A stretch of DNA of 64,000 bases. Origin: Hyaloraphidium curvatum. Lineage: Eukaryota; Monoblepharomycota; Hyaloraphidiomycetes; Hyaloraphidiales; Hyaloraphidiaceae. The stretch's first letter is position 1. Each line of letters begins with the position of its first letter. The notes below the pieces were generated by a model. The model ran no database searches and was not told the origin of the DNA. It was given only the letters and a program-made list of their open reading frames with translations. Where the stretch lies: positions 186,001-250,000 of the forward strand of contig JAIVFI010000043.1 of the NCBI GenBank assembly GCA_025558095.1. The letters are read 5' to 3'. Positions 9,158 to 49,345 of the stretch are shown piece by piece. The position numbers and the translations under genes are program-made.

Positions 9158-12086
9158 ATGGCCGCGGCTGGCGAGGACATTGCGGCGCTCAAAGCGCTGA
9201 CCGATGCCGAGGAGATTAAGAACCACCTGCGGCTGCTCAATGCGGACGAGTCGCGCGTCGACGCGGAGCTGGACGCCGCCCTGCGCGGGCAGGGGGACCT
9301 GGAACGGAGCCTGGAGATGCTGGACGTGCTGCGGTACGCTCCCTCGCGAGGAGGCGGCGTTCAATGGGCTCACGATCGCGGTGGAAGACCGCAGCTGGGG
9401 ATCCTGAAGAACGACGCGGGCCAGCTCCTGGAGGTCGTCAGCAGGACGGCTGCGCTGGCGGAGAAGATCAGCGAGAAAGTCCGCCGGCTCGACCTGGAAC
9501 AGGTGGGCCCTGGACCGCCTCCGCGGGAGCAGGGAGCGTTCTGACACCACGGACGTCGAACCAGTCGCGCGTTCGGTCAACCATGAAGCTGGTGGAGGAT
9601 ATCCAGGAGCTCAAGGTGGCCACGCCGGACTTGCTGGGTGTTTGGGCCCGAAGCTGACGTGCCGCGCGTGCCCAGACGCTCGTGACGGGGGTCGACGTGG
9701 CCATGTCCGGCAACGATTTCGAGTCCGCGGCCAAGCACATTCAGCGCTACCTCGCCTTCGATCCTAAGGTCATCGAGAGCCTTTTCGCGGACGCGTCGGT
9801 GGACAAGCAGTACCTGTCGGAGAATGGGGCCGCCTTCATCACCCCGGGCTCGCTGAGCGAACTTGCGGCCGGGGAGTCGCCGGTGGAGAAGATGAAGAAG
9901 GCGCGGGGCGAGCTCGTGGACACGCTGTCGCAGCGTTTCGACAAGGCGGTCGAGGCGGGGAGCGACGAGGGCATCCTGCGGTTCTTCAAGCTCTTCCCGC
10001 TCATCGGGTACCCGGAGCTCGGGCTGGACAAGTACGCCACTTTCGTCTGCAGCACCGTGGCGAGAAAGTCCCAGGAGCACATGAGGAGCAGCTCCGCAAG
10101 TGGGTACACCGCAGGTGCGGTAGCTGGACGTGACGCCCACCCGCATTCAAGGCCCCACCTTCTACGCGGACTTGTTGACGAAGCTGTTCGAGTCGGTGGC
10201 TACCGTCGTCGACAAGCAATCGCCGCTAGTGGAGAGCACTTACGGTCCCGGCCGGATGTTGCGGATCATGCAGAGGCTGCAGAAGGAGACGGACATCCAG
10301 GCGAACGTGATCCTGGACACTTTCATGGAAAAGCGCGGAATTCGGCGAAAGGTGTCCTCGGTTGTTGGTGCAATTCCTCATGTCGCTGAACGTTTTCTCA
10401 TCAGCTTCTGGAAGTGAGCTCCTGGGAACCCTCCCAGCAGACCGCGGCCGCAAAAGCGGGATCCAAAGCCGTGGAATCGGACATCCGGGAGCTGGACCTC
10501 ATTCTGGCCGAGGTCACGCTTATCAGCCAGCGGACGCAGCTGTTCGACCGCTTCCTGCACGCGCGGGCGGCGGCGGAGATCGAGAAGGTCAAGGACTCGG
10601 ACTATGGCAACGCACTCAGCCGCACGCTCGACGTGCTGCACAAGGACGGCCTGGCAAAGACCAGCAGGTTGGACCAGCGTGTGCAGGAGCTAATGGGACA
10701 CTATGTCGTTTTGGAGGAGTTCTTCATCCGGCGTTCGATCGACAAGGTGCGTGGATCGGATCACGCCGCGTCCTTCGCGTCCGCTGACAGTTTGCTGCAG
10801 GCGATGAAGATCGACGAGTACGAGCGCGGAAACGCCACATCGTCGTGCGTGGACGATGTCTTCTACATCCTCAAGAAGTCGTCCGCCCGCATCATCTCGA
10901 CGGCCGATCCCGACAGTCTCTGCGCGATGATCAACGTTTTCGGCCAGGTTCTGGAGGCCGACTACATCAACGCGTTCCAGAAGCAGCTCTCCACCGCGTT
11001 TCCAAGCTTGGAGACTTCGGACTCGAAGATTGGGTTCATGGTACGTGCCTTTTCCAGATGATGCGTGGGTTAGGAAGCTCATGCGACTGGCAATCAGGTC
11101 ATTTTGAACAATGTGGACGTCAGCTGCGACTACCTCGCCAAGCTGGGGCAGGAGCTGGACAGGGACATTGCCCGAGCCCTTGGAAGTACCTTTGTCGCCA
11201 ATCAGCAGAAGATCGAGTCCTGCATATCCAACCTGGAGGATTCGGGCACCGGCTTCCGCCAGACCCTCAAGGTGAATCTCCCGTTTGTGCAAGCTATGAG
11301 CGCTCACGCCTCTCCGAAGTCCTGGCTCGAGAACTTCTTCAATCAGGCGCTGAATCCTCGGATAAAGACGCTTCTGCAAGAATCGTATAAGTTTGCGAAG
11401 TACGTGCTGACCGAGGAGGAGTACGCCGAAGAAGATCGCCTCGACGCCTTCGCGAAGCGAGTCACTTCGGGCCTGGACAAGATCATGGACATCACCAGGG
11501 TATGCTCCCATGTGCAGCCTGGCCGGTTGGGCACTTCTTATTCGCTGAACGCTGCCAGCAAACCTTCACCGACGCCAACAACCTCCACGTCATGAACCTA
11601 TCCGTGGAGTATGTCGCTAAGGAATGGGAGCGGCATATCTTCCATTCTGCCAAGTTCAATCCCGTGGGTGCTTGCCTCAGCGTCCGGAAACGAGCGCCTT
11701 TGACGCAATGCTTACGCGTCTAGCTCGGTGCAATCCGTTTCGACAAGGATCTGAGGTCCATAACCGCCTACTTCACTTCTCGCTCACAAGTCTTGGTTCG
11801 TGACAAGTTCGCACGACTGAGCCAGATGTCAACGCTCCTGAATTTGGAGAAGGTGGCCGCATGTTTGATTTCCCTCTCGGGCCCTGTCTAACATCCCCTT
11901 CACACGCGCCAGCTGACGGAAATCTACGACATCTGGGGCACTGTAACGTGGCGATTAACCGTGTCCGAAGGTGAGGGAGCGGGCCGTCTTCGCAAATACG
12001 TTACTGACTCGGCACTTTTAGTTCGGAAGGTGTTGGCGTTGAGGGTGGATGCTTCTGTCGACGCTATTGCGCGGATCAAGTTGTAA
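9158..12086 (+). CDS. COG4: Conserved oligomeric Golgi complex subunit 4
   Basis: Twelve exons (9158-9333, 9388-9502, 9565-9615, 9676-10099, 10152-10351, 10405-10746, 10801-11040, 11098-11499, 11559-11663, 11724-11852, 11913-11970, 12022-12086) give 768 aa, close to human COG4. COG4 belongs to lobe A of the COG tether for retrograde vesicles at the Golgi. Diagnostic stretches: TAALAEKISEKVRRLDLEQ, the AKHIQRYL segment, FYADLLTKLFES, VILNNVDVSCDY, and the tail GAIRFDKDLRSITAYFTSR then RDKFARLSQMSTLLNLEK, with EIYDIWG and VRKVLALRVD. An in-frame 48-nt stretch (about 11272-11319) inside exon 8 could be a further intron. Confidence 0.92.
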
Positions 12087-20876: not shown

Positions 20877-21220
20877 ATGTCTTCCTCATCGAAAGTCACG
20901 GTCCACACCGTATATTGCGGCGCGTGAGGTAGAACTCCGCGCCTTCGCTGTCGCTGGTCCCGCGGACCCTGATCGTCGCTCCGCTAGGTTACGGGCGCCG
21001 ATACTCGGCCTTCGAGCGCGAGCTCAAGGCCGAGTTCGGCAGCAAGATCTCTATCACGTCGTTCTCGACCCCCACGGCGACCTCCAAGTTTGAAGTGACC
21101 GTCGGCGGCGTGCTGGTCCACTCGAAGATCGGCGGCGCAGGATTCGTCGACAACGAGAGCAAGCTTCAGCGCATCTTTGCTGCGATCGAAGCGGAGCTCG
21201 CCAAGGACAACAGCTCTTGA
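20877..21220 (+). CDS. SELENOW: Selenoprotein W with in-frame TGA (selenocysteine)
   Basis: Exons 20877-20928 and 20988-21220 give 94 aa if the TGA at 20925-20927 is read as selenocysteine (U, residue 17). The protein starts with a beta-strand and the redox motif VYCGAUGYGRRY, which is the CxxU signature of SelW/Rdx proteins. Then come FERELKAEF, TATSKFEVTVGGVLVHSK and GFVDNESKLQRIFAAIEAEL, matching the rest of SelW through to its end. The TGA sits exactly where animal and algal SelW has Sec. The intron splits the next codon and has GTAGAA/CTAG ends. A SECIS-like hairpin follows the true stop. An ordinary annotation would truncate this gene to 16 codons or miss it. Function: thioredoxin-fold redox protein. 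Confidence 0.85.
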
Positions 21221-21270
21221 AGCGATACTGTTGACCTCGGAGAGCTAGACTGAATCGGTGCCCGCTGCGA

Positions 21271-21336
21271 GATCTTCATGAAGGCTGTTCACGAAAGCGC
21301 GAGGCGCGGTGAGCTTGCCTGAACGCAAGGGAGATC
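21271..21336 (+). promoter_or_regulatory. Predicted type II SECIS element in the SELENOW 3' UTR
   Basis: The hairpin lies 58 nt after the stop codon. Core pieces: 5' ATGA at 21278-21281 and 3' TGA at 21320-21322 (the non-Watson-Crick quartet), and unpaired AA(A) at 21294-21296. The spacing from ATGA to AA is 12 nt, as in known SECIS elements. Stem II pairs 21283-21292 with 21309-21319 (GGC/GCC, then TTCAC/GTGAG, with a mismatch, G-U pairs and one bulge). After the AA, a perfect mini-hairpin GCGC-GAG-GCGC (21297-21307) makes it type II. A lower stem pairs GATCT (21271-21275) with AGATC (21332-21336). It would recruit SBP2 and the Sec elongation factor. Folding was done by hand. Confidence 0.75.
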
Positions 21337-21439
21337 GTGGAAAGGCTCCGATTCAGTCGTGTCAATCAATCCATCATTAGAAGTTTGGAGTACACTAGAG
21401 GATCTCCTCGACCATTCCAATACCTGGAGTCGGAGTCGG

Positions 21440-23231
21440 TTACTTCAAAGCAGCCAAAAGCGCACGCCTGTTCTCACCTTCGCTCTCGACGCCCTTCAGC
21501 AGAGGCTCATAGAATTCCGGCAGCATGGGGGCAAGAACGCCCTTGGCGTTGATGACACCTGCAAACAACCAGTCAGCCTGGCCCCGAACCCCACCCAACT
21601 GAATCTCCTCACCGTCGAGAATGAGCTGGGTAGCGATTCCACACGGCACACCGACAGTCTTGGCCATGGCCGTAACGCCGTTGGGCTCCCCGTACCAAAG
21701 ACCCGTGGAAGTCCGGGTCTGCCTGGCGCCGTCCTTGGTTTCGCACTCGAAACGATGTTGCAGGAACACCATGTCCCTCTCGCCGGGGCCGTACTGCATT
21801 TTGGCCTCCAAAGTGGCGCAGAGAGTGTCCAGCGGCGTGCCACGCGGGGTCGCGGGGTTGGCGGAGAAGAGGCCAAGCCACCGCAGCCCCGAAATGATCC
21901 GCTCCTTCTCGTAGCCCTCGAGCCCGGCCTTCTCAATGACTGCCTTCTCCAAATCCGCCTCCGAGTTTGTTGCGGTCCCAAGCACTTTCTGCATCACGTC
22001 GTTCTGGGCGGGCGGGTTGGAAGGCGTCCAGAAAGCACCGGCATCGAAGACCCTACCCAGGCGATCGACGATCCCTCCTTGAGGTAAGGCTCCTGCTTGT
22101 CGCTCAGCAGTCCCACGAGCACGAGGGCCTTGACAAACTTGGGGAATCCCTGGTGTTCGCGTCGTCAGCGATGTGGCTCAGGACCGCCACAAATCCACCC
22201 ACAGCGTACCGCAAGGTCCCGCGGATGATGGTCTGGGCCTCCTCGATGTTGTAGCGTTTGTCGTAGGGCGTCGAATCCCGGTTGGGGTAGCCCTCAAACG
22301 CGAAACCGGGGTACCCGGTGAAGATCGGCTTGGCCTCGTCCATCAGATCCTCGGACGAAATCTCCACAACCTTCCCGTCCTTCTTGTACTTGGCCGAATT
22401 CCGGAGGGCCAACAGCACGCCGCGGCTGGACCAGGAGAACTTGTACCCCAGGGGGTTGGCGCTGTCCTCCGGCGCGGGCAGGCCCCCGCAGTACGACGTG
22501 AAGTCCACGATCTTCCCGCCTTCGGCGTGGACCTCGGCAATAGTCTTCAGTGCGTAGAGGTGATCAATACCTGGGAAGCGGTTGAAGTTTATCAGATACT
22601 CGGATACCGCGCCCGAGTGCCGCGTACCGGGATCGACGCCGATCTCGTTGAAGACAGTGATCCCGGCCTCCTTGGCACTGGAAGACTTCCGATGAGCTGC
22701 AGTACACGTCGACAAGAGAGGAATGCCCACGCAGCGTCGAGTTCCATCATGGCGGGAGACACGTAGGAGGTGGTGACGACGTGCTTCTTGTGCTTGATCG
22801 CCGCCTTGATCACGGCCGCATGATGCGTGTAGGGAATCAAGCTGAGGCACGCAAATCGAATCCAGAGCCATCCAAAGACAATCCATTCGGTCCAACCTGA
22901 TGACGAGATCGTGCTTCCCGATTTCCTCGGCAATCGCATCGTCGTTGGTGACGTCCAGCGCAATGGCGGTTGCCCTGGGGTGTCCACCGGCGAGCTTCTG
23001 TCCATTCTCGATCCTCCGACTGGCTGTGGTTGTCTTTTGAGCTCTCGCTCGGCTAGTGGGAGCCGCTCGAGCTCACCGATTGTCAAGTGGTTCTCCGGCC
23101 TCCGCAGGAGATACTCGGCACACGGCCCTGCCACGAATCCCGATCCAAGAAGAAGAATCTTTCTAGATTTTAATGGACACGTCAATGCCAACGCTGTAGC
23201 GATGGCGTGCCGGCACGCACTTCTGCGCCAT
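21440..23231 (-). CDS. LYS9: Saccharopine dehydrogenase (NADP+, glutamate-forming)
   Basis: Nine exons (23221-23231, 23077-23162, 22897-23023, 22731-22841, 22628-22677, 22203-22570, 22057-22149, 21613-22003, 21440-21558) give 451 aa, close to yeast Lys9. It catalyses the penultimate step of the alpha-aminoadipate lysine pathway, condensing aminoadipate semialdehyde with glutamate. Landmarks: MAQKKILLLGSGFVAGP (Rossmann Gly motif), HDLVISLIPYTHH, HVVTTSYVSPAMMEL, VFNEIGVDPGIDHLYALK, FTSYCGGLPAPE, PLGYKFSWSSRGVLLALRN, and late VGVPCGIATQLILDG. The first coding exon is 11 nt. It converges on SELENOW, whose 3' UTR lies in the 219-bp gap. With LYS12 it shows that this organism makes lysine the fungal way. 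Confidence 0.93.
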
Positions 23232-34983: not shown

Positions 34984-35076
34984 GCCCTTGTAGCTCAGTG
35001 GATTGAGAGCGCCTGGCTTCTAGCGTCTGCTACGCACGATACCAGGCGGTCGAAGGTTCGAACCCTTCCTGGGGCG
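34984..35076 (+). tRNA. tRNA-Arg (anticodon TCT) with 18-nt intron
   Basis: All four arms fold by eye. The acceptor stem pairs GCCCTTG (34984-34990) with CTGGGGC (35069-35075), with one T-T mismatch; the discriminator is G35076. D stem GCTC/GAGC (34993-34996, 35007-35010). Anticodon stem CCTGG/CCAGG (35012-35016, 35042-35046); loop CTTCTA...A with anticodon TCT at 35019-35021. An 18-nt intron (35023-35040) sits between positions 37 and 38, the canonical nuclear intron site. T stem GAAGG/CCTTC with loop TTCGAAC. The B box GGTTCGAACCC is intact, so the gene should be transcribed by RNA polymerase III. Confidence 0.93.
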
Positions 35077-36066: not shown

Positions 36067-37960
36067 TATAGTATTGGTGACCCGGACCTGCCCCTGGCTT
36101 GGCCGCTGTTACACCATGAGTTTGCTGCTAATTGCAAAGTTCATCGTCGTCGTGTGTCTTTTTCATTTTCCCAGTTTTCCTGTCCTTCATGGACTTTGAG
36201 ATGAAGCTGGCAATGGAGTTGAGGGCCTTCTCCTTCTGCCGCCTCGCTTTGATCGTGGGCTCGAACTCCTTGATGCTAAGAGCCCAGAGCCAGGTCTCCA
36301 TGTTCCACTCGCGGCCTAGTGCTTCCAATCTAGTCTGCAGCTTCTGGCGCCGCTCCGCATTTGCTGAACAGTGAAACAGAAAGTGTTGTTCGTCTCCAAT
36401 GTGCTCAGGGTCATGCTTGCACGTTCTCTGCTGCACCTCAAGTCCTTGGTGCCTGCCTGTCTCCACCTCCAGGTCGTGGGTAGAGCACAGCAACTTTTGG
36501 ACATCCCTCCGGTGCTTCTCCACCCGGATCAGGGATGGTCCGATGTGGCCAAAGGTCATGTCACACATCCTCCAAAAGTGCAGTTTGTCGTTGTCCTTGA
36601 GCCTCTGGGCATTGATCTCCCTGAACTTGCCCTTCACAAGATTCTCCACAGTCTCCTTGGGCCATGAGAAAGTGTCCTTCTCCCACATCTCCCTCCCATC
36701 TTCGCCGCCATAGTATACAAGTAGTTCCCTCAGGAAGGCAGCCCAGTTCCAGGACCCCTTCAGTGCCTCGATCTTGAGCTCTTTGTAAAGTAGGTACAGC
36801 GCAGGATCCGCTGTTTTGATGCGCATGAGGAACTTGAGTGCCGACTCGTGGTCATGAACTGCAAGGGGGCGGGTACTGGCCAGTGATCGCATACAGACAG
36901 GCCAGGGAGGTAGACTTGGGCAGATGAGTGACGGCACGAAGAGCTATGCAAGTCACTTTGTCCCTGGTGCTTTCCCCGGCAACGTACTCCTCCTTCGGCA
37001 TCTCAACAATGAAGGGGTTCCCATATTGGCCCAATGCCTTGACCTTCGTGTTGTAGAGCTTGAGTTGGAGGTCAGGACTCATCCCAGGCTGCTCCCTGAT
37101 GTCGCGGAACCAGAGCCCATAAGCAGCATTCATCTTAGCCTCCCTGCCATGCACATGGTCCTTGTTCCGCCCTTTTGAGGTGAGCTGGTACCCCAGAAGC
37201 TTGAAGCTGTCGAACCTCTTCAGCTCCTGGCCCCTGTACAGGAGCTTCACACGGTGGGGTGCCCTCCTGGCCATCCACTCTGTTTTGCTGATGTTGTCTC
37301 CAGCCCATTGGCACTGGCATAGCAGACAAAAGATCCAGCTGCATCTTGGCATCCTTCAGCGTCTTCGACATCAAAGTGGTGTCGTCTGCAAAGAACAAAG
37401 CCAGCAAGCTGACCATCCTCTCCTGATCCTCCTCCTCCTCAAACACCATGCCCAGATCCATCCCTTTTGCACCATTGGCCTCTACTCTATGAAAGCAGTG
37501 ATGTCGTTGATGAACGAGATGAAGAACAGCGATGAGAGTGGGTCCCCCTGCTTCACTCCAGTTAGGAACTTGATGAAGTCCGACTTGGTGCCGTCCTCAT
37601 CCCGGATCCTTCCCCACACCTGCCCAAACGCCATCTCGAACATATCAACAACCTGTTTGGGTACACCCATCTCCTCCAGCTTCCTCCACAACCTCGGGCC
37701 CTCCACCGTGTCAAAGGCCTTTGTGAATCCACAAACACCACGATCAGCTTCTCCTTGCGTGCCTTGGCCAAGGAAGAGAGTGCCTCAGCGAGGAGTACTG
37801 CATGAAGGGTCGACCTCCATGCACGGAATCCAAACTGCGAGTCTCCCAGCAGCTTGTTGCACTAAGCCCAGGGAGCTAGCCAAAGCGTTCCAGTGTCTGG
37901 CCCTAGTCTTCCATGTTGATGCCGTTGAGCACGTTGTGGAGGAGGTTGACAGAACCCGCA
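36067..37960 (-). mobile_element. LINE copy B (non-LTR retrotransposon, 5' truncated)
   Basis: The minus strand encodes, in broken frames, a reverse transcriptase and C-terminal region. The frame 36128-36937 (269 aa) is the same as in copy E apart from one residue. It includes a Cys/His cluster (CKHDPEHIG then FLFHC) like the zf-RVT region after the RT of many LINEs. Upstream frames hold FADDTTLM (RT motif C, 37135-37461) and GVKQGDPLS (motif B'). Motif A is shifted by small deletions near 37730, and a segment of roughly 130 bp present in E is missing near 37905. No endonuclease domain is visible. The element is dead but closely similar to copy E, so it is recent. Confidence 0.88.
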
Positions 37961-40097: not shown

Positions 40098-43000
40098 TCA
40101 CGTACTGGAAGCCGAACCCGAAGGAAGATCCACCACACCAATGCGCGCACGGAAAAGTTCAAAAGGGGCCGGAGCTAAAGGCTTGGTAAAGCCGTCCTCA
40201 AGGTTGTCGTCTGACACCACCCGCGCAGTCTCAATGGTTCCATTTTGCACAGTGTCGCGAACCAGGTGGTACTTGATATCGATGTGCTTCGTTCGCTCGT
40301 GGAACTTAGGATCACGAGCGAGCTGTTCAGCAGACTTGTTGTCCTCGAAAAGTCGCGTAGGTGTCGTCCGCGCAAAGCCAAGTTCCTGCAGGATGGAGCG
40401 CAGCCAGAGAATGTTGCGAACTGCATGCGCCATAGCAACGTACTCGGCTTCCGTAGTAGACTGTGCAACGATGGATTGCCGCTTGGTCAGCCAGGCAATG
40501 CTGGAAGCACCCATGAGGATGACGAGACCCGTGGTCGACTTGCGGGTCATCACACAGCCAGCAAAATCGGCATCCGCATATGCACAGAGATCCAAGCGAT
40601 CACCAGACGCAGGACGACGACCAAGAACGAGTCCATAGGTACGGGTGCGGTGCAGGTAGCGCAAAACATCTCGAAGCGCCTTGATGTGAAGAGGCCCAAA
40701 GCTGTTGGCAAAGTGAGAAAGAAAGATAACTGCAAAGGCAATGTCTGGCCGTGTTGTGATGGCAATCCAAAGTAGAGATCCAATCAGGCCTTTGTAGTTG
40801 AAGCTGTTGACGTCGTCTTGGATCTTCGTTGGCAGGCTGTCAAATACCGTGGGGTCGAATGGGCGCAGCATCTGGAGTGCATCTGGGCGCATCGGCGTGA
40901 GAGCAGACTTTGTCTCCTTGCTGGGAACAGCACGCGTGAATGCGAAGTCGCGGAGGACGCGGTCGATGTATGCCGTCTGCGACAATGAGATTGTACCAGT
41001 GCCGGTGTCGCGACGGATGTGCACGCCCAAGCAGTAAGTGACAGGACCCAGCGAGTTGATGTTGAAATGCTGCTTGAGACTGGCAAACAATTCATCGATC
41101 TCCAGCTGTGAGGTGGCGGCAACCAGCAAGTCGTCCACGTAGACAAAGACGATCATAATGCGGCCGGCCGCGAAGCGCATGTAGAGACAGCTCTCGGAGG
41201 CCAGCTTCACGAATCCAGCCTGGCGAAGGAAATGATCAAGTATTGCAAGGAACAAGCGCATCGCTTGCCGTAATCCATAGAGACTGTACTCTTCAGCAGC
41301 CGAAGCACTGTGCGCGAGGAAGACTCCTTGAGGAACCGCCATCCCGGAGGCGGCCTGATGTAGACAATGTAGTCCAGCGGAGCATGCAGAAACGCCGTCT
41401 TGATGTCCCAGTGATCACAGAGGAGTCCCAGCGTGGCAACAAGAAGAAGGAAGAGGCGGAAAACGACTTGGTTAGGAACGGCAGCGAACGTATCGTAGTA
41501 TGTTTGCTCGGATTGGCGGTTTCCATCCGCCACCAAGCGTGCCTTGAAGCGCGTAACGTTGTTGTTCTGGTCCTTCTTGACGTCGTAGACGTAGTGCGAG
41601 GGCACCACCTTGTCCTCGTCACCAGTGGGGAGTTCCGTCTCCTCGACCACACCCATCTCAAGAATCGACTTGTTCTCCTCCTGCCGCGCTTCCTCCCACT
41701 GAGCCGCATGCGGTGACCTCTGCGATTCGTTGTATGTGCGCGGAACGGTGACATCGTGCACCGACAGCAGGGTCACCGGGCTCGTGTCTGGGTGAGGGGC
41801 ATTGGTACCTGGTATGCGGCACATCTCGAAGGCTGGGAAGCGGAAAGGAGGGGAGAATGTCAACGGGGTGACAGTCGAAGACATGGCAAGGGGGTCCTGG
41901 AGACCGTCATCTGGCCAAGGGTGCTCGGCATGCCATCGCACCCCATCGCCCGGCTCATCGCCATCGCCAGCATCCACTTCCTCCCGCTCCGCTTCCGGTG
42001 GGTACTCAATCTCTTCTTCAAGGAGCTCCCACTCGTACGCTTCGTTCGCCTCATGTCGCTGTGCAGATTCCTGGGGGCCCGTTCCCGTATCCTTGTGCTG
42101 TGTCCGCTGATCATCGTCGCTGTCTTCATCCATCGCTGGATCCACCGGCTTGGAGAGCTGAGGGGGAAGTCGGGGATGCACAAGAGCAAAAGGTCGTTGC
42201 TTCCCCAGCTCGTCAATCTCGCGGAAGGAGCCGGGCGAGCGTTTAGAATAGCGCTCGTTGAAGACAACCGATCGAGCATGAACTATCTTGCCTGTGGTCA
42301 GATCCAGAACCGTGTACGCCTTCAGATGCTTCGGGAAACCGAGGAAGATTGCACGGTGTGCACGGTCGTCCAGAGCCTTGCGCTGGCTGGGGAGGATGCC
42401 ATACCAGCACTCCGACCCGAACGTGCGGAGACGTGACAGGTCGGGTTTAGTCCCTGTCCACAGCTCATGCGGCGTGGTAACCGTTCCCTTTGCGCCCCGT
42501 TGCATCGTCTTCACTGTTGGGAGCATGTTGCGGACTTCAGTCTTGTATGCGAGGGCGTAGTTCCAGAAACGCTTCTCGACATCAGTCTGAATGCAGAGCG
42601 CAAGTACCCCTTCGACCTGGGAACGATGCTCGCGTTCGGGTACCGCGTTCTGTTGAGGCGTATCGGCTATGGAGACCCGGAAGTGAGTGCCTCGTTCACG
42701 TAACCAGGTCTGGAACCAGCCCAGCTCCCTTGCGTTCCAACGCCCGAGCTCGGTACCCTGGTCAGACTGGAGGTGCTTGAGGCGTTTCCCGGTCTGCATC
42801 TCGGCCCACACTATGAGCTGCTGAAGGAGAGGTGCCGCTTCGTCCTTGGTCTTCAGGGGGATCGACCAAAGCTTCTGCGACCACTCGTCCTTGACGTCCA
42901 TCCAGTAGCGGTCGCCGTGCACGGAGGTGATATCGACCGGGCCCTTGAGGTCAACGTGCCAGAGATCCATAACATCCTTGACGTGCTCACGCATTGAGGG

Positions 43001-43738
43001 GCGGAACGGCGCGGTCGTCAGCTTCGCGCACAGGCAGACGTCGCACTCGATAACCTCCGACTCGGGGCCCAGATCGACGTTCTCAAGGCCAAGCACCGCG
43101 CCCGACCTCTGCGCTATCCGGATGCGCTCAATGTGAGCGTGCGCACACCGGGCATGCCACAGGTGACGGTCGTAGAGACGTGACATGCGTACCCCGCGCA
43201 GTCGGATCAAATCCGCGTTGGTGAGTCCCCACATGGCCTGCGACGTTGACCCCGGTTTGACGACCTCGATCGACATCGGGAAGACGCCGTTCTGCTGGGG
43301 AAGAATGCATAACTCCGTGCCGTCCACAAGGTATAGCAGTTTCTGCATCTCCTTGTCCGTCAGGTAGCGGTTCTTGGATCGAATGCCAGCGGCGGCCAAT
43401 GCCGTTTCCGAGAATAGGCGGCACGGTGTGCTCGGCATGAAGAGAACGTTGTCAAGCCGAACAACGGGTCCGCTGGTGCGGAAACGCACGTACATGGTGC
43501 CAGCCTGTGACACCTCCACGGGCCCCGTAAGTCCATGCACAACGAACTTGGGTATCGAGTAGACTTTGGTCAGGTCGCTTAGGGTATTGGTGGAGTTGCG
43601 ACTCGCGCCAGAATCGAAGAAGGAATCGCAGTTGTTCGCTCGGACATGGTTAATGTACGCGCGAGCGTGTTGAGCTTGTACCATGCCGCCGTCGATGTCC
43701 TCCCCCGAAACGGCGTTGGCCGTCACGGTCGGCATCAC
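40098..43738 (-). pseudogene. pol: Copia pol: protease, integrase, reverse transcriptase, RNase H (one frameshift)
   Basis: Two overlapping frames, 41207-43738 and 40098-41342, together encode a Copia polyprotein. In order: aspartic protease with FFDSGAS; integrase zinc-binding region (HLWHARCAHAH, then CDVCLCAK) and catalytic core with DLKGP, SDQGTE; reverse transcriptase with KTAFLHAPLD and FVYVDDLLVA (the catalytic YVDD); RNase H with YADADFAG, TEAEYVAMA and DNKSAEQLA. The frames must be joined by a one-base shift near 41275, just after GWRFLKES and before YGLRQAMR. All catalytic motifs are otherwise intact. The protease frame begins after a TAA, so expression presumably needed readthrough, reinitiation or splicing. 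Confidence 0.9.
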
Positions 43739-44149
43739 AGCGGCCTCCCCGCCGCCACGTAGTTAGTAGTCGAAGCCGTCGCCGTAGGGCGCTCCCTCGC
43801 CGGGCTCGTGGTCGTAGCCGACATAGCTGAGATCGGCTCCCTCACTGTCACCATCCATCGAGCCATAGCCCAGGAAGCCGAAGGCTGTCAGGCAAGGCTG
43901 CAATGAAGATCGATCTGGGTGCGGGGCGGGTGAGTTACCTTCGGCAGCGGCGTCGCCTTACCGAGATGAACAGAGAGGATACGAATCGGATCAAAATGAG
44001 ATAGCGGGATAAGGAACGGAAAATCAAGTCAGTATCAGGCGCGGATGTTGTGGGATCGGAGGGGATGGTTGTTGGTTGGGGGAGGTTTTCGGGTTGTGGC
44101 GCGGTCAACCGGAAAACATCGCGACTCCCGTCCCAAACTCCGTCACGCG

Positions 44150-44650
44150 GCACACAGTCACGCGCCGGGCCCGCGGCCCCTCCTGGCGCGAGGCAACCGC
44201 CGACGTCGAGCACCACGGCCCCTTCGCGACGCCGGGCCCACGGCCCATACTCTAGCGCCGGGCCCACGGCCCCTTCGCGGCGCCGGGCCCGCGGCCCACA
44301 TTCCACGCGCCGGGCCCGCGGCCCCTTCACGGCGCTGGGCACCGCGGCCCTCTTCTTTAAGCGTCTGGCACCTCGGCCCCTCGCGACGCGGGGCACCGCG
44401 GCCCTTCCCCTAGGCGCCGGGCACCGCGCCCCTTCTCGTCAAGCGTCTGGCACCTCGGCCCTTCGCGACGCGTGGCCCGCGGCCCTCCTCTCAAGCGTCT
44501 GGCACCTCGGCCCTTCGCGACGCGGGGCCCGTGGCCCTCCTCTCAAGCGTCTGGCCCGCGGCCCTTCGCGACGCGGGGCCCGCGGCCCTCCTCTTCAACC
44601 AAGCGCCGAGCACCGCGGCCCCTTCGCGGCGCGGGCACCTCGGCCCTGAC
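44150..44650. repeat. GC-rich minisatellite (52-bp period) inside the Copia element
   Basis: Tandem, variant units built from GCGCCGGGCCCGCGGCCC and AAGCGTCTGGCACCTCGGCC. Unit starts at 44441, 44493 and 44545 are exactly 52 bp apart; those at 44359 and 44601 are irregular. It lies between the gag zinc knuckles and pol, where related elements have none. It is open in several frames on both strands, which explains the long spurious ORFs here. Confidence 0.85.
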
Positions 44651-45920
44651 ATCACCACCCGATGCTCACCCTCGCTGTGTTCCATCTGGGCATCTGCCAG
44701 CATGGCGTACGGCTGCTGGGGCGGTGATGGGCACTCGCGCTGTACGTGCCCCTTGCCGTTGCAATTGTGGCACTTCTTGTCGGGGCACGCCGATGCCACG
44801 TGCCCCAGCTTGCCACATTCGCGGCAGGTGATCTCACTGGTCACCGGAGCCGGCCTCCAAACGGCAGCACCAGCGGGGCGGTAGCTTGGGCCGCCCATCG
44901 GCCTCAGTGTCTGCGCGGGGTAGTAGCCGCGGCCTCCGCGCATGCCACCACGTGCCAACCCGCGGCCGTGCATCCGAGTATCATGGCCCTGGCCTTGGAT
45001 AGGAGCCATGCCGCTCGGCCTGTAGCTGGGGTACGGAGCGTAGCGACCGTGCTCGTACCAGGGGCGCTGCGGAGGCCGACTGAGGATGCCACCACTATGG
45101 AGGGCTTGTTGGGGCGGCTGATAGGCAGTGAAGCCGGGTCCGAATCCAGCAGGGGGCGGGAGCGTCGGGAGTGTCGCCGGAGCTGTCATCTTGACAGGTG
45201 CATGCGGCATCTTGTTTCCTTGGGCTGTGTTAGCCGCATCCCGCATGCCATTGAACGAGAATGTTATACTCTCGCTCTTGCCGTCTTCGTCGAAGTGCCC
45301 GTCCTCGTCAATGACTCGGCCCCAGAATCCTTGGAGTTCCGTGAACGGGAAGCCTTCGGTGAACGTCACCATCAGAGCCACGTCGTAGTCTGAGAGTGGT
45401 TTCTTGTGCGCAAGTCTCTCTGACTTGATACTCAGCAGCTCGTTGAAGTTTTGGTCCACAGTCTTTGAAGCGTCCCACTGCCACTTGTTTACGCGGACTT
45501 GGGACGTACCAAGCGCGCCTTTCCAACTTTGAACTTCTTGTGAATCGCGATCCAGAGGTCGTAGGCCGTCTTGGGCTCGTCGAACGCTTCCTGGAGGACG
45601 TCGTCGAGCATCAACATGAGCTCGCCGTAGGCCTTTTCGGCCGTCGTCCTGAACTTGTGTTCCGTGAGGATCGAGTGCGCGGCCTTCTCTTCCTCGGCAA
45701 GGATGGTCTGCCTCTGCCCGTCTGTGGTCTCTGGAGCGGCGCTGCGCTCAGCAGCCCTCTTGCGGGCCTGCTCGAGCTGCCAGTCGATGCTGAGGACGTT
45801 GTTGACGACGTACTCGTACACCCCAAGCTTGTTGAGGTAGATGGGGGCCTTGCGGTCCCACTGGACCATGTTGTCACCGGTGTTGAGCAGGATAGGCTTG
45901 TTGGCATCGTTGGCTGTCAT
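44491..45920 (-). pseudogene. gag: Copia gag with two CCHC zinc knuckles (frameshifted)
   Basis: The frame 45489-45920 starts MTANDANKPILLNTGDNMVQW and has the helical Copia gag core (AYDLWIAIHKKFKVGKARL). A one-base shift near 45490 moves it into the frame ending at 44491, which continues VNKWQWDASKTVDQNF. That frame contains a Gly/Pro/Tyr-rich region and two CX2CX4HX4C knuckles (CRECGKLGHVASAC and CHNCNGKGHVQREC, about 44735-44825). Its C-terminus then reads into the 52-bp minisatellite, giving a repeated Arg/Ala/Gly/Pro peptide. Confidence 0.85.
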
Positions 45921-47185: not shown

Positions 47186-49345
47186 GAATAGTATTGGTGA
47201 CCCGGACCTGCCCCTGGCTTGGCCGCTGTTACACCATGAGTTTGCTGCTAATTGCAAAGTTCATCGTCGTCGTGTGTCTTTCTCATTTTCCCAGTTTTCC
47301 TGTCCTTCATGGACTTTGAGATGAAGCTGGCAATGGAGTTGAGGGCCTTCTCCTTCTGCCGCCTCGCTTTGATCGTGGGCTCGAACTCCTTGATGCTAAG
47401 AGCCCAGAGCCAGGTCTCCATGTTCCACTCGCGGCCTAGTGCTTCCAATCTAGTCTGCAGCTTCTGGCGCCGCTCCGCATTTGCTGAACAGTGAAACAGA
47501 AAGTGTTGTTCGTCTCCAATGTGCTCAGGGTCATGCTTGCACGTTCTCTGCTGCACCTCAAGTCCTTGGTGCCTGCCTGTCTCCACCTCCAGGTCGTGGG
47601 TAGAGCACAGCAACTTTTGGACATCCCTCCGGTGCTTCTCCACCCGGATCAGGGATGGTCCGATGTGGCCAAAGGTCATGTCACACATCCTCCAAAAGTG
47701 CAGTTTGTCGTTGTCCTTGAGCCTCTGGGCATTGATCTCCCTGAACTTGCCCTTCACAAGATTCTCCACAGTCTCCTTGGGCCATGAGAAAGTGTCCTTC
47801 TCCCACATCTCCCTCCCATCTTCGCCGCCATAGTATACAAGTAGTTCCCTCAGGAAGGCAGCCCAGTTCCAGGACCCCTTCAGTGCCTCGATCTTGAGCT
47901 CTTTGTAAAGTAGGTACAGCGCAGGATCCGCTGTTTTGATGCGCATGAGGAACTTGAGTGCCGACTCGTGGTCATGAACTGCAAGGGGGCGGGTACTGGC
48001 CAGTGATCGCATACAGACAGGCCAGGGAGGTAGACTTGGGCAGATGAGTGACGGCACGAAGAGCTATGCAAGTCACTTTGTCCCTGGTGCTTTCCCCGGC
48101 AACGTACTCCTCCTTCGGCATCTCAACAATGAAGGGGTTCCCATATTGGCCCAATGCCTTGACCTTCGTGTTGTAGAGCTTGAGTTGGAGGTCAGGACTC
48201 ATCCCAGGCTGCTCCCTGATGTCGCGGAACCAGAGCCCATAAGCAGCATTCATCTTAGCCTCCCTGCCATGCACATGGTCCTTGTTCCGCCCTTTTGAGG
48301 TGAGCTGGTACCCCAGAAGCTTGAAGCTGTCGAACCTCTTCAGCTCCTGGCCCCTGTACAGGAGCTTCACACGGTGGGGTGCCCTCCTGGCCATCCACTC
48401 TGTTTTGCTGATGTTGTCTCCAGCCCATTGGCACTGGCATAGCAGACAAAAGATCCAGCTGCATCTTGGCATCCTTCAGCGTCTTCGACATCAAAGTGGT
48501 GTCGTCTGCAAAGAACAAAGCCAGCAAGCTGACCATCCTCTCCTGATCCTCCTCCTCCTCAAACACCATGCCCAGATCCATCCCTTTTGCACCATTGGCC
48601 TCTACTCTATGAAAGCAGTGATGTCGTTGATGAACGAGATGAAGAACAGCGATGAGAGTGGGTCCCCCTGCTTCACTCCAGTTAGGAACTTGATGAAGTC
48701 CGACTTGGTGCCGTCCTCATCCCGGATCCTTCCCCACACCTGCCCAAACGCCATCTCGAACATATCAACAACCTGTTTGGGTACACCCATCTCCTCCAGC
48801 TTCCTCCACAACCTCGGGCGCTCCACCGTGTCAAAAGCCTTTGTGAAATCTACAAACACCATGATCAGGTTCTCCTTGCGTGCCTTGGCCAAGGAGAAGA
48901 GCGCCTCAGCGAGGAATACTGCATGAAGGGTGGACCTCCGTGCCCGGAATCCAAACTGAGAGCCTTCCAGCAGCTTGTTGCACTCAGCCCAGGGAGCTAG
49001 CCGAGCGTTCCAGACCTGGGAAAAGACCTTCTCCAGTGTCCTCTCTATGCTGATGCCCCCGTAGTTGCCAGCCACGTTCTGGGGGCCCTTCTTGTGCAGC
49101 ATCACCAGCAGTGTCTGGCCCCAGTCTTGCATGTCAACCCCATTGAGCACGTCGTTGAGCAGATCGACAACAGCTTGCTTCAGCACAGTGGTCCCATATT
49201 TGACGAACTCGAGCCCGATCCCATCCTCATCTGCTGGCCTGCCGTTAGGAGCCTTCTTCAGGACATTCTCCTGCTCCCTGTGCCTGCCGGAGATGCAAGT
49301 GATGGGATCTTCCAAGTGGCACTGCTCACGCAGGAACACTCTGCT
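47186..49345 (-). mobile_element. LINE copy E, longest copy in the window (5' truncated, frameshifted)
   Basis: About 2.16 kb, minus-strand sense. The first frame (48602-49339, 245 aa) holds most of the RT palm: LLVMLHKKGP, SQFGFRARRSTLHAVFL, VFVDFTKAFDTVE (motif A) and GVKQGDPLSSLFF (motif B'). A frame break then leads to FADDTTLM (motif C; 48255-48581), and another to the C-terminal 269-aa frame (47248-48057) with the CKH...FHC cluster. No endonuclease or ORF1 precedes it, so the copy is 5' truncated near 49345. The 3' end carries a short AATAG tail (47183-47192). It is almost identical to copy B. Confidence 0.88.

Follow-up and report, generated by a model that had tools for sequence, protein, structure and literature searches.

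The use of selenocysteine (Sec) has been reported in fungi since 2019, and what is new in the locus described here is an additional, at least independent, example of it. According to the accessible part of one paper, Mariotti et al. (2019) found nine Sec-using fungal species, seven of which are Harpellales (PMC10386755), and the Sec-using fungi named in the accessible part of another include Bifiguratus adelaidae and Gonapodya prolifera (PMC7988114). SelenoH is described as common to the Harpellales, with expression in Zancudomyces, in the available section of a third (PMC12611240). These three sources, as far as their accessible text goes, agree with an earlier sequence-only reading of this DNA, which had placed Sec use in a few early-branching fungi. 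Two papers of 2021, in the text available from them, give no Sec in the annotated proteomes of 689 fungal species (PMC7988114, PMC8559351). No further Sec-using fungus appeared in the titles and abstract beginnings that were found, a weak negative, as most subscription journals lie outside this coverage. To our knowledge, a Sec-containing selenoprotein W (SelW) is not known in fungi, and most of the fungal selenoproteins of the 2019 survey reportedly lack a canonical SECIS.

The gene studied here lies in a window of 64,000 nucleotides, by which we mean the whole stretch of DNA analysed (C43:186001-250000), and the assembly searched comprises 31,925,308 bases (31.9 Mb) in 55 contigs. The features of the locus are collected in Table 1.

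Table 1. The SelW gene, its 3'UTR hairpin and the neighbouring gene, in window positions.
Feature	Position	Strand	Remarks
SelW exon 1	20877-20928	+	codons 1-17 plus base 1 of codon 18
SelW in-frame TGA (U17 of CxxU)	20925-20927	+	aligned to the Sec position of mouse SelW
SelW intron	20929-20987	+	59 nt, GT...AG, phase 1, codon split G/GT
SelW exon 2	20988-21220	+	own TGA stop codon at 21218-21220
Basal helix (helix I) under SelW SECIS core	21248-21358	+	folded pairs
SelW SECIS core	21278-21322	+	ATGA 21278-21281, helix II, AAA 21294-21296, apical mini-stem 21297-21307, TGA 21320-21322
Saccharopine reductase (LYS9-like)	21440-22900	-	converges on SelW, about 220 bp apart; piece 22104-22895 searched

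When the in-frame TGA is read as U, the predicted product has 94 aa, with the motif C14-G-A-U17 near its N-terminus (context VYCGAUGYGRRY) and 77 residues after U17. The sequence-only reading had proposed a two-exon SelW whose CxxU is written C-G-A-TGA-G-Y and whose frame is kept across the intron, and the exons, the TGA at the U position and the phase-1 junction bear this out; of its claim of about 78 residues of homology past the TGA, the continuation stands, but the length is corrected to 77 by the count. The product matches the Pfam Rdx profile PF10262 (50.6 bits, cut-off 22.6) and the NCBIfam model TIGR02174 of the SelT/SelW/SelH CXXU family (62.9 bits, cut-off 34.2). Its sole PDB match at E <= 0.001 is a selenoprotein W, 2npb (68.6 bits, E 3.9e-18), which we take to be that of mouse, in a gap-free alignment over residues 8-90; the solved chain has Cys at the position aligned with U17, presumably a Sec-to-Cys mutant. 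The mouse protein shares the CxxU and a length of about 90 residues, and differs from the present one in that the latter has a fungal host and 94 aa. Having both the Rdx profile and a UGA-coded CxxU, the predicted protein is placed in the SelW/SelTWH family. The GC content at codon positions 1, 2 and 3 is 0.53, 0.46 and 0.86 over the 76 SelW codons 3' of the TGA, and the downstream frame is therefore coding. Splices that skip the TGA and stay in frame without a stop number 52 (24 GT-AG, 12 GC-AG, 12 AT-AC and 4 AT-AG), and none of them keeps C-G-A-x-G-Y; the least damaging are a GC-AG splice at 20919/20987, which loses three residues to give VYCGYGRRY, and a GT-AG splice at 20923/21042, which loses the stretch past VYCGA. 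A chance origin of the SelW reading is excluded. Six peptide patterns, an insensitive probe, detected no close relative of SelW in prokaryotic genomes.

The type II eukaryotic SECIS is usually described as an ATGA/AA/TGA layout with an apical mini-stem. Such a type II element, on which the sequence-only reading is silent, lies 57 nt 3' of the SelW stop codon, with an arm of 12 nt from ATGA to AAA and a mini-stem GCGC/GCGC, so that SelW carries in its 3'UTR the SECIS of a eukaryotic selenoprotein gene. The hairpin folds at -51.6 kcal/mol (z -4.39), and none of 200 shuffles is as stable, over 112 nt whose ends were fitted to the helix. A descriptor, written only after this hairpin had been seen, demands ATGA, 10-13 nt, an unpaired AA, a helix II with 7 pairs or more spanning both quartets, and TGA, and gives the SelW element -15.2 kcal/mol. 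In 2000 dinucleotide shuffles of the 180-nt SelW UTR it is satisfied 13 times at any energy, 7 times at <= -10 kcal/mol and once at <= -15. In 330,048 bases, counting both strands of the window and of 24 other loci, it yields three hits at -10, of which the two besides SelW lie at window position 10081 (-20.0 kcal/mol, a lower energy than that of SelW) and at position 1863 of locus L071 (-10.2); neither adjoins a known Sec gene. The descriptor is thus not unique to SelW, and therefore it is the adjacency to a Sec-type gene, and not the hairpin alone, that bears the argument. An earlier, looser scan of the window had given six rows at five places. Rfam, scanned over the SelW region up to E <= 1, gives no match to the hairpin. 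When the SelW hairpin is taken as the single sequence of a covariance model, SelW itself scores 77.4 bits and no other match in eight sources exceeds 12.8 bits; the SPS2 hairpin described below matches this single-sequence model at its ends only, with no structural match, and MAFFT alignments of the two hairpins are structurally wrong. As an observation apart, the SECIS-like hairpin on the forward strand at 10081, with no known Sec gene beside it, is probably a chance one.

Genes for the whole Sec-decoding set (tRNA-Sec, PSTK, SepSecS, SPS2, EFSec and SBP2) are present in the same genome. The tRNA-Sec gene (C14:445030-445115) scores 78.2 bits (cut-off 47), carries the anticodon TCA and aligns with a 9-pair acceptor, one pair of which is non-standard, and a 4-pair T stem. 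This family gives loose-level matches in all 14 control genomes and matches above the cut-off in five of them; the cut-off therefore matters, and the C14 locus passes it. SepSecS (C8:364654-366000) has three stretches above cut-off, the best at 198.9 bits, and there is a further, weaker match on C6. EFSec is matched by PF21208 at C1:404566-404920 (54.5 and 28.8 bits, cut-off 27), with the GTPase motifs GHVDSGKTSL, RGITLDLGFSAF and VTLVDCPGH in adjacent frames, and its hand-joined pieces score higher with eEFSec (118.1 bits) than with archaeal SelB (79.9) or the best EF-Tu (53.2). The model TIGR00475 was set aside as an EFSec finder: it gives 17 matches, and the eight that were placed are all read by eye as other GTPases, namely mtIF2, mitochondrial EF-Tu, eEF1A (two), an eRF3/HBS1-like protein, a GTPBP-like protein, eIF5B and eIF2-gamma. 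PSTK (C2:720164-720465) appears as weak exon matches of 22.7 and 15.2 bits in frames that read GLPGAGKS, DDNMYYSSMR and TPLETCLERN; the joined piece reaches 33.8 and 31.8 bits with PSTK structures and 73.9 bits with the equivalog model TIGR03575, below the curated cut-off of 382, so that the assignment draws on the motifs as well as on this score. A KTI12 match on C22 was excluded as a PSTK, being read as a true Kti12. Among 11 L7Ae exon matches, ten are by eye eL8, SNU13, eL30, NHP2 and eS12, and SBP2 is found at C31:198350, which reads RRIVLGLREVLRHCMRGKLKSVIVATN with CVGILSYDGAEELF in an adjacent frame; the only PDB match of its joined pieces at E <= 0.1 is SBP2 (E 2e-10).

SPS2 (C2:990953-991939) is a second selenoprotein gene. 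It scores 169.8 bits in a frame with one TGA and 174.4 bits as joined pieces (cut-off 125), and the TGA stands in the context VEWAELKG-TGA-GCKVQQ, which we take to be the SPS2 Sec site. Its 3'UTR has a SECIS-like hairpin 54 nt past the TAG stop, with ATGA, 12 nt, AAA, a mini-stem CATC-UUCG-GATG and TGA, whose canonical core fold lies at -16.5 kcal/mol, 1.4 above the free minimum of -17.9; the automatic descriptor missed this element, which is a reading by eye. All six of the genes that the sequence-only reading had singled out to be looked for were thus found, SPS2 being itself Sec-containing, and its proposal that the organism has kept Sec insertion gains genomic support from these genes together with the TGAs at the Sec sites of SelW and SPS2.

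Two selD-like open reading frames on C31 proved to be thiamine-phosphate kinases (292.8 and 284.1 bits with TIGR01379, cut-off 184). These ThiL frames, at L035 1453-2445 and L036 1506-2498, are near-identical, intronless and about 12.5 kb apart, and a piece resembling a THI5/NMT1 protein precedes the L035 copy. The genes are presumably of a bacterial kind, and a horizontal transfer from bacteria followed by duplication is possible.

If the TGA of SelW were a true stop, the gene would be in decay, a remnant coding for a peptide of 16 residues. By eye, the adjoining LYS9-like gene seems to shift its reading frame by one base at each of two closely spaced points, through assembly indels or as a damaged copy, so that indels, real or of the assembly, do occur here, and the machinery that the SelW UGA requires could stand unused. 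Decay of SelW is nevertheless very improbable, as frame and homology persist through the 77 codons that follow the TGA, with a GC3 of 0.86, the SECIS hairpin is intact, and the machinery genes sought are present, with an SPS2 that retains its own Sec codon. Another explanation is that UGA is reassigned genome-wide, or decoded as Cys or Trp instead of Sec, for which an in-frame coding UGA would suffice. A tRNA-Sec with the anticodon TCA does exist, however, and both in-frame TGAs, in SelW and in SPS2, fall on known Sec sites, while SelW, mtIF2, eL8 and NHP2 end at TGA, which closes 6 of the 13 open reading frame ends that were read (SelW included, and two of the six being the ThiL copies). TGA is also a normal stop codon in this genome, and reassignment, which these ends rule against, is exceedingly improbable.

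The contig could also derive from algal, animal or other contamination, the host being a fungus that does not use Sec; an algal or animal origin is what the sequence-only reading had named as fatal to its claim. Such an origin would fit the absence of the trait from most fungi, the lack of a Fungal_trans match on C14 (tRNA-Sec) and C43 (the window), and the presence on C31 of thiamine-phosphate kinases of a presumably bacterial kind. Against it stand several marks of the host. The Fungal_trans domain (PF04082), which we take as a fungal mark, gives 74 matches at E <= 0.001, 73 of them above cut-off, on 33 of the 55 contigs, and none in the 14 control genomes, which are all prokaryotes with no eukaryote among them. 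The contigs with such matches include C1, C2, C8 and C31, which bear EFSec, SPS2 and PSTK, SepSecS, and SBP2, respectively. The eEF1A of the assembly carries the insert PWFKGWKKEGKAGEVTGKTLL, presumably an opisthokont mark. The saccharopine reductase gene that neighbours SelW, whose stop codon is 21440-21442, scores 201 and 197 bits with the saccharopine reductases 1e5l and 2axq, and 125 and 123 bits with AASS; we take 1e5l to be from Magnaporthe, 2axq from yeast and the AASS chains to be human. The GC content of the window, 0.60, falls inside the range of 0.57-0.67 measured for seven loci (machinery and eEF1A). By Fungal_trans, the eEF1A insert and the LYS9 type, the host is a fungus, and contamination of the contig is highly unlikely.

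The best explanation, and a very probable one, is therefore a genuine SelW gene in a fungal host where UGA is still decoded as Sec. The gene with its frame and Sec-site motif, the fold of the SECIS and the occurrence of the named components are established directly, and we infer from them that SelW is transcribed, spliced and given its Sec. In eukaryotes, Sec synthesis is established to proceed from seryl- through phosphoseryl- to Sec-tRNA, with recruitment by SBP2 and EFSec. In this fungus, tRNA-Sec(UCA) would be charged with serine and then phosphorylated by PSTK, and SepSecS would make Sec-tRNA from the phosphoseryl-tRNA using selenophosphate, which SPS2, itself Sec-dependent, would supply. 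SBP2 would sit on the type II SECIS in the SelW 3'UTR, at its GA quartet, which is described as the SBP2 site in the accessible text of PMC11227280, and EFSec with Sec-tRNA would in this way reach the ribosome at the UGA. The predicted product, 94 residues long, belongs to the thioredoxin-like Rdx family of redox proteins and has CxxU as its active site.

The Sec-using early-branching fungi (Harpellales, Gonapodya, Bifiguratus), as described in the accessible parts of the papers cited above, likewise have Sec machinery and a few selenoproteins. The Harpellales are there said to share SelenoH, whereas here PF10262, taken as covering SelH, finds SelW and a Cys-type gene only in the assembly (introns could hide a match), and Sec is encoded in SelW and SPS2. 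A clean SelW gene with a canonical SECIS is the trait that sets this case apart, while most selenoproteins of the fungi in the 2019 survey are reportedly without a canonical one. It is possible, although we would lean slightly against it, that the lineage lies outside the nine published Sec users and has kept whole an ancestral animal-like system, comprising SBP2, SECIS elements of the canonical type II and a SelW that contains Sec. Were both so, this would be the best fungal reference for Sec decoding before its loss in most fungi. Direct genomic evidence against the conclusion that fungi have no Sec comes from this machinery together with no fewer than two selenoprotein genes; the result from 689 proteomes is one that any annotation halting at TGA would yield. 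The case adds one point to the map of fungal Sec losses and, if the organism can be cultured, would offer a simple system for Sec insertion and for the effects of selenium on a fungus.

Other redox families of the assembly were also read. The Cys-type Rdx paralogue (C20:442984-443287, locus L032), a gene separate from the SelW of the window, has the motif CPKC, scores 47.2 bits as joined pieces and contains no Sec codon. The nine GPx exon matches have no internal TGA, and Cys occupies both of the GPx active sites that were located by motif. Among ten AhpC-TSA exon matches, one has a TGA and covers profile positions 81-122, presumably beyond the usual active-site region.

Some further features were noticed in the window and the assembly. 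ARAGORN calls a tRNA-Pyl (CTA) at 34984-35076 on the forward strand (53.2 bits with the Rfam tRNA model); the call was rejected, since in the anticodon loop C-T-TCT-A is succeeded by extra bases, which makes a tRNA-Arg(UCU) with an intron the most likely identity. Two pairs of Fungal_trans matches of equal score and length (C10:42653-43207 with C51:10831-11385, and C25:4796-5410 with C25:28295-28909) suggest recent duplications or redundant contig ends. A near-identical open reading frame of 269 aa occurs twice in the window, at 36128-36937 and 47248-48057 (-), and between the two copies lies, by eye, a copia-like retroelement (40098-45459, reverse strand) with gag-like, integrase and reverse-transcriptase frames.
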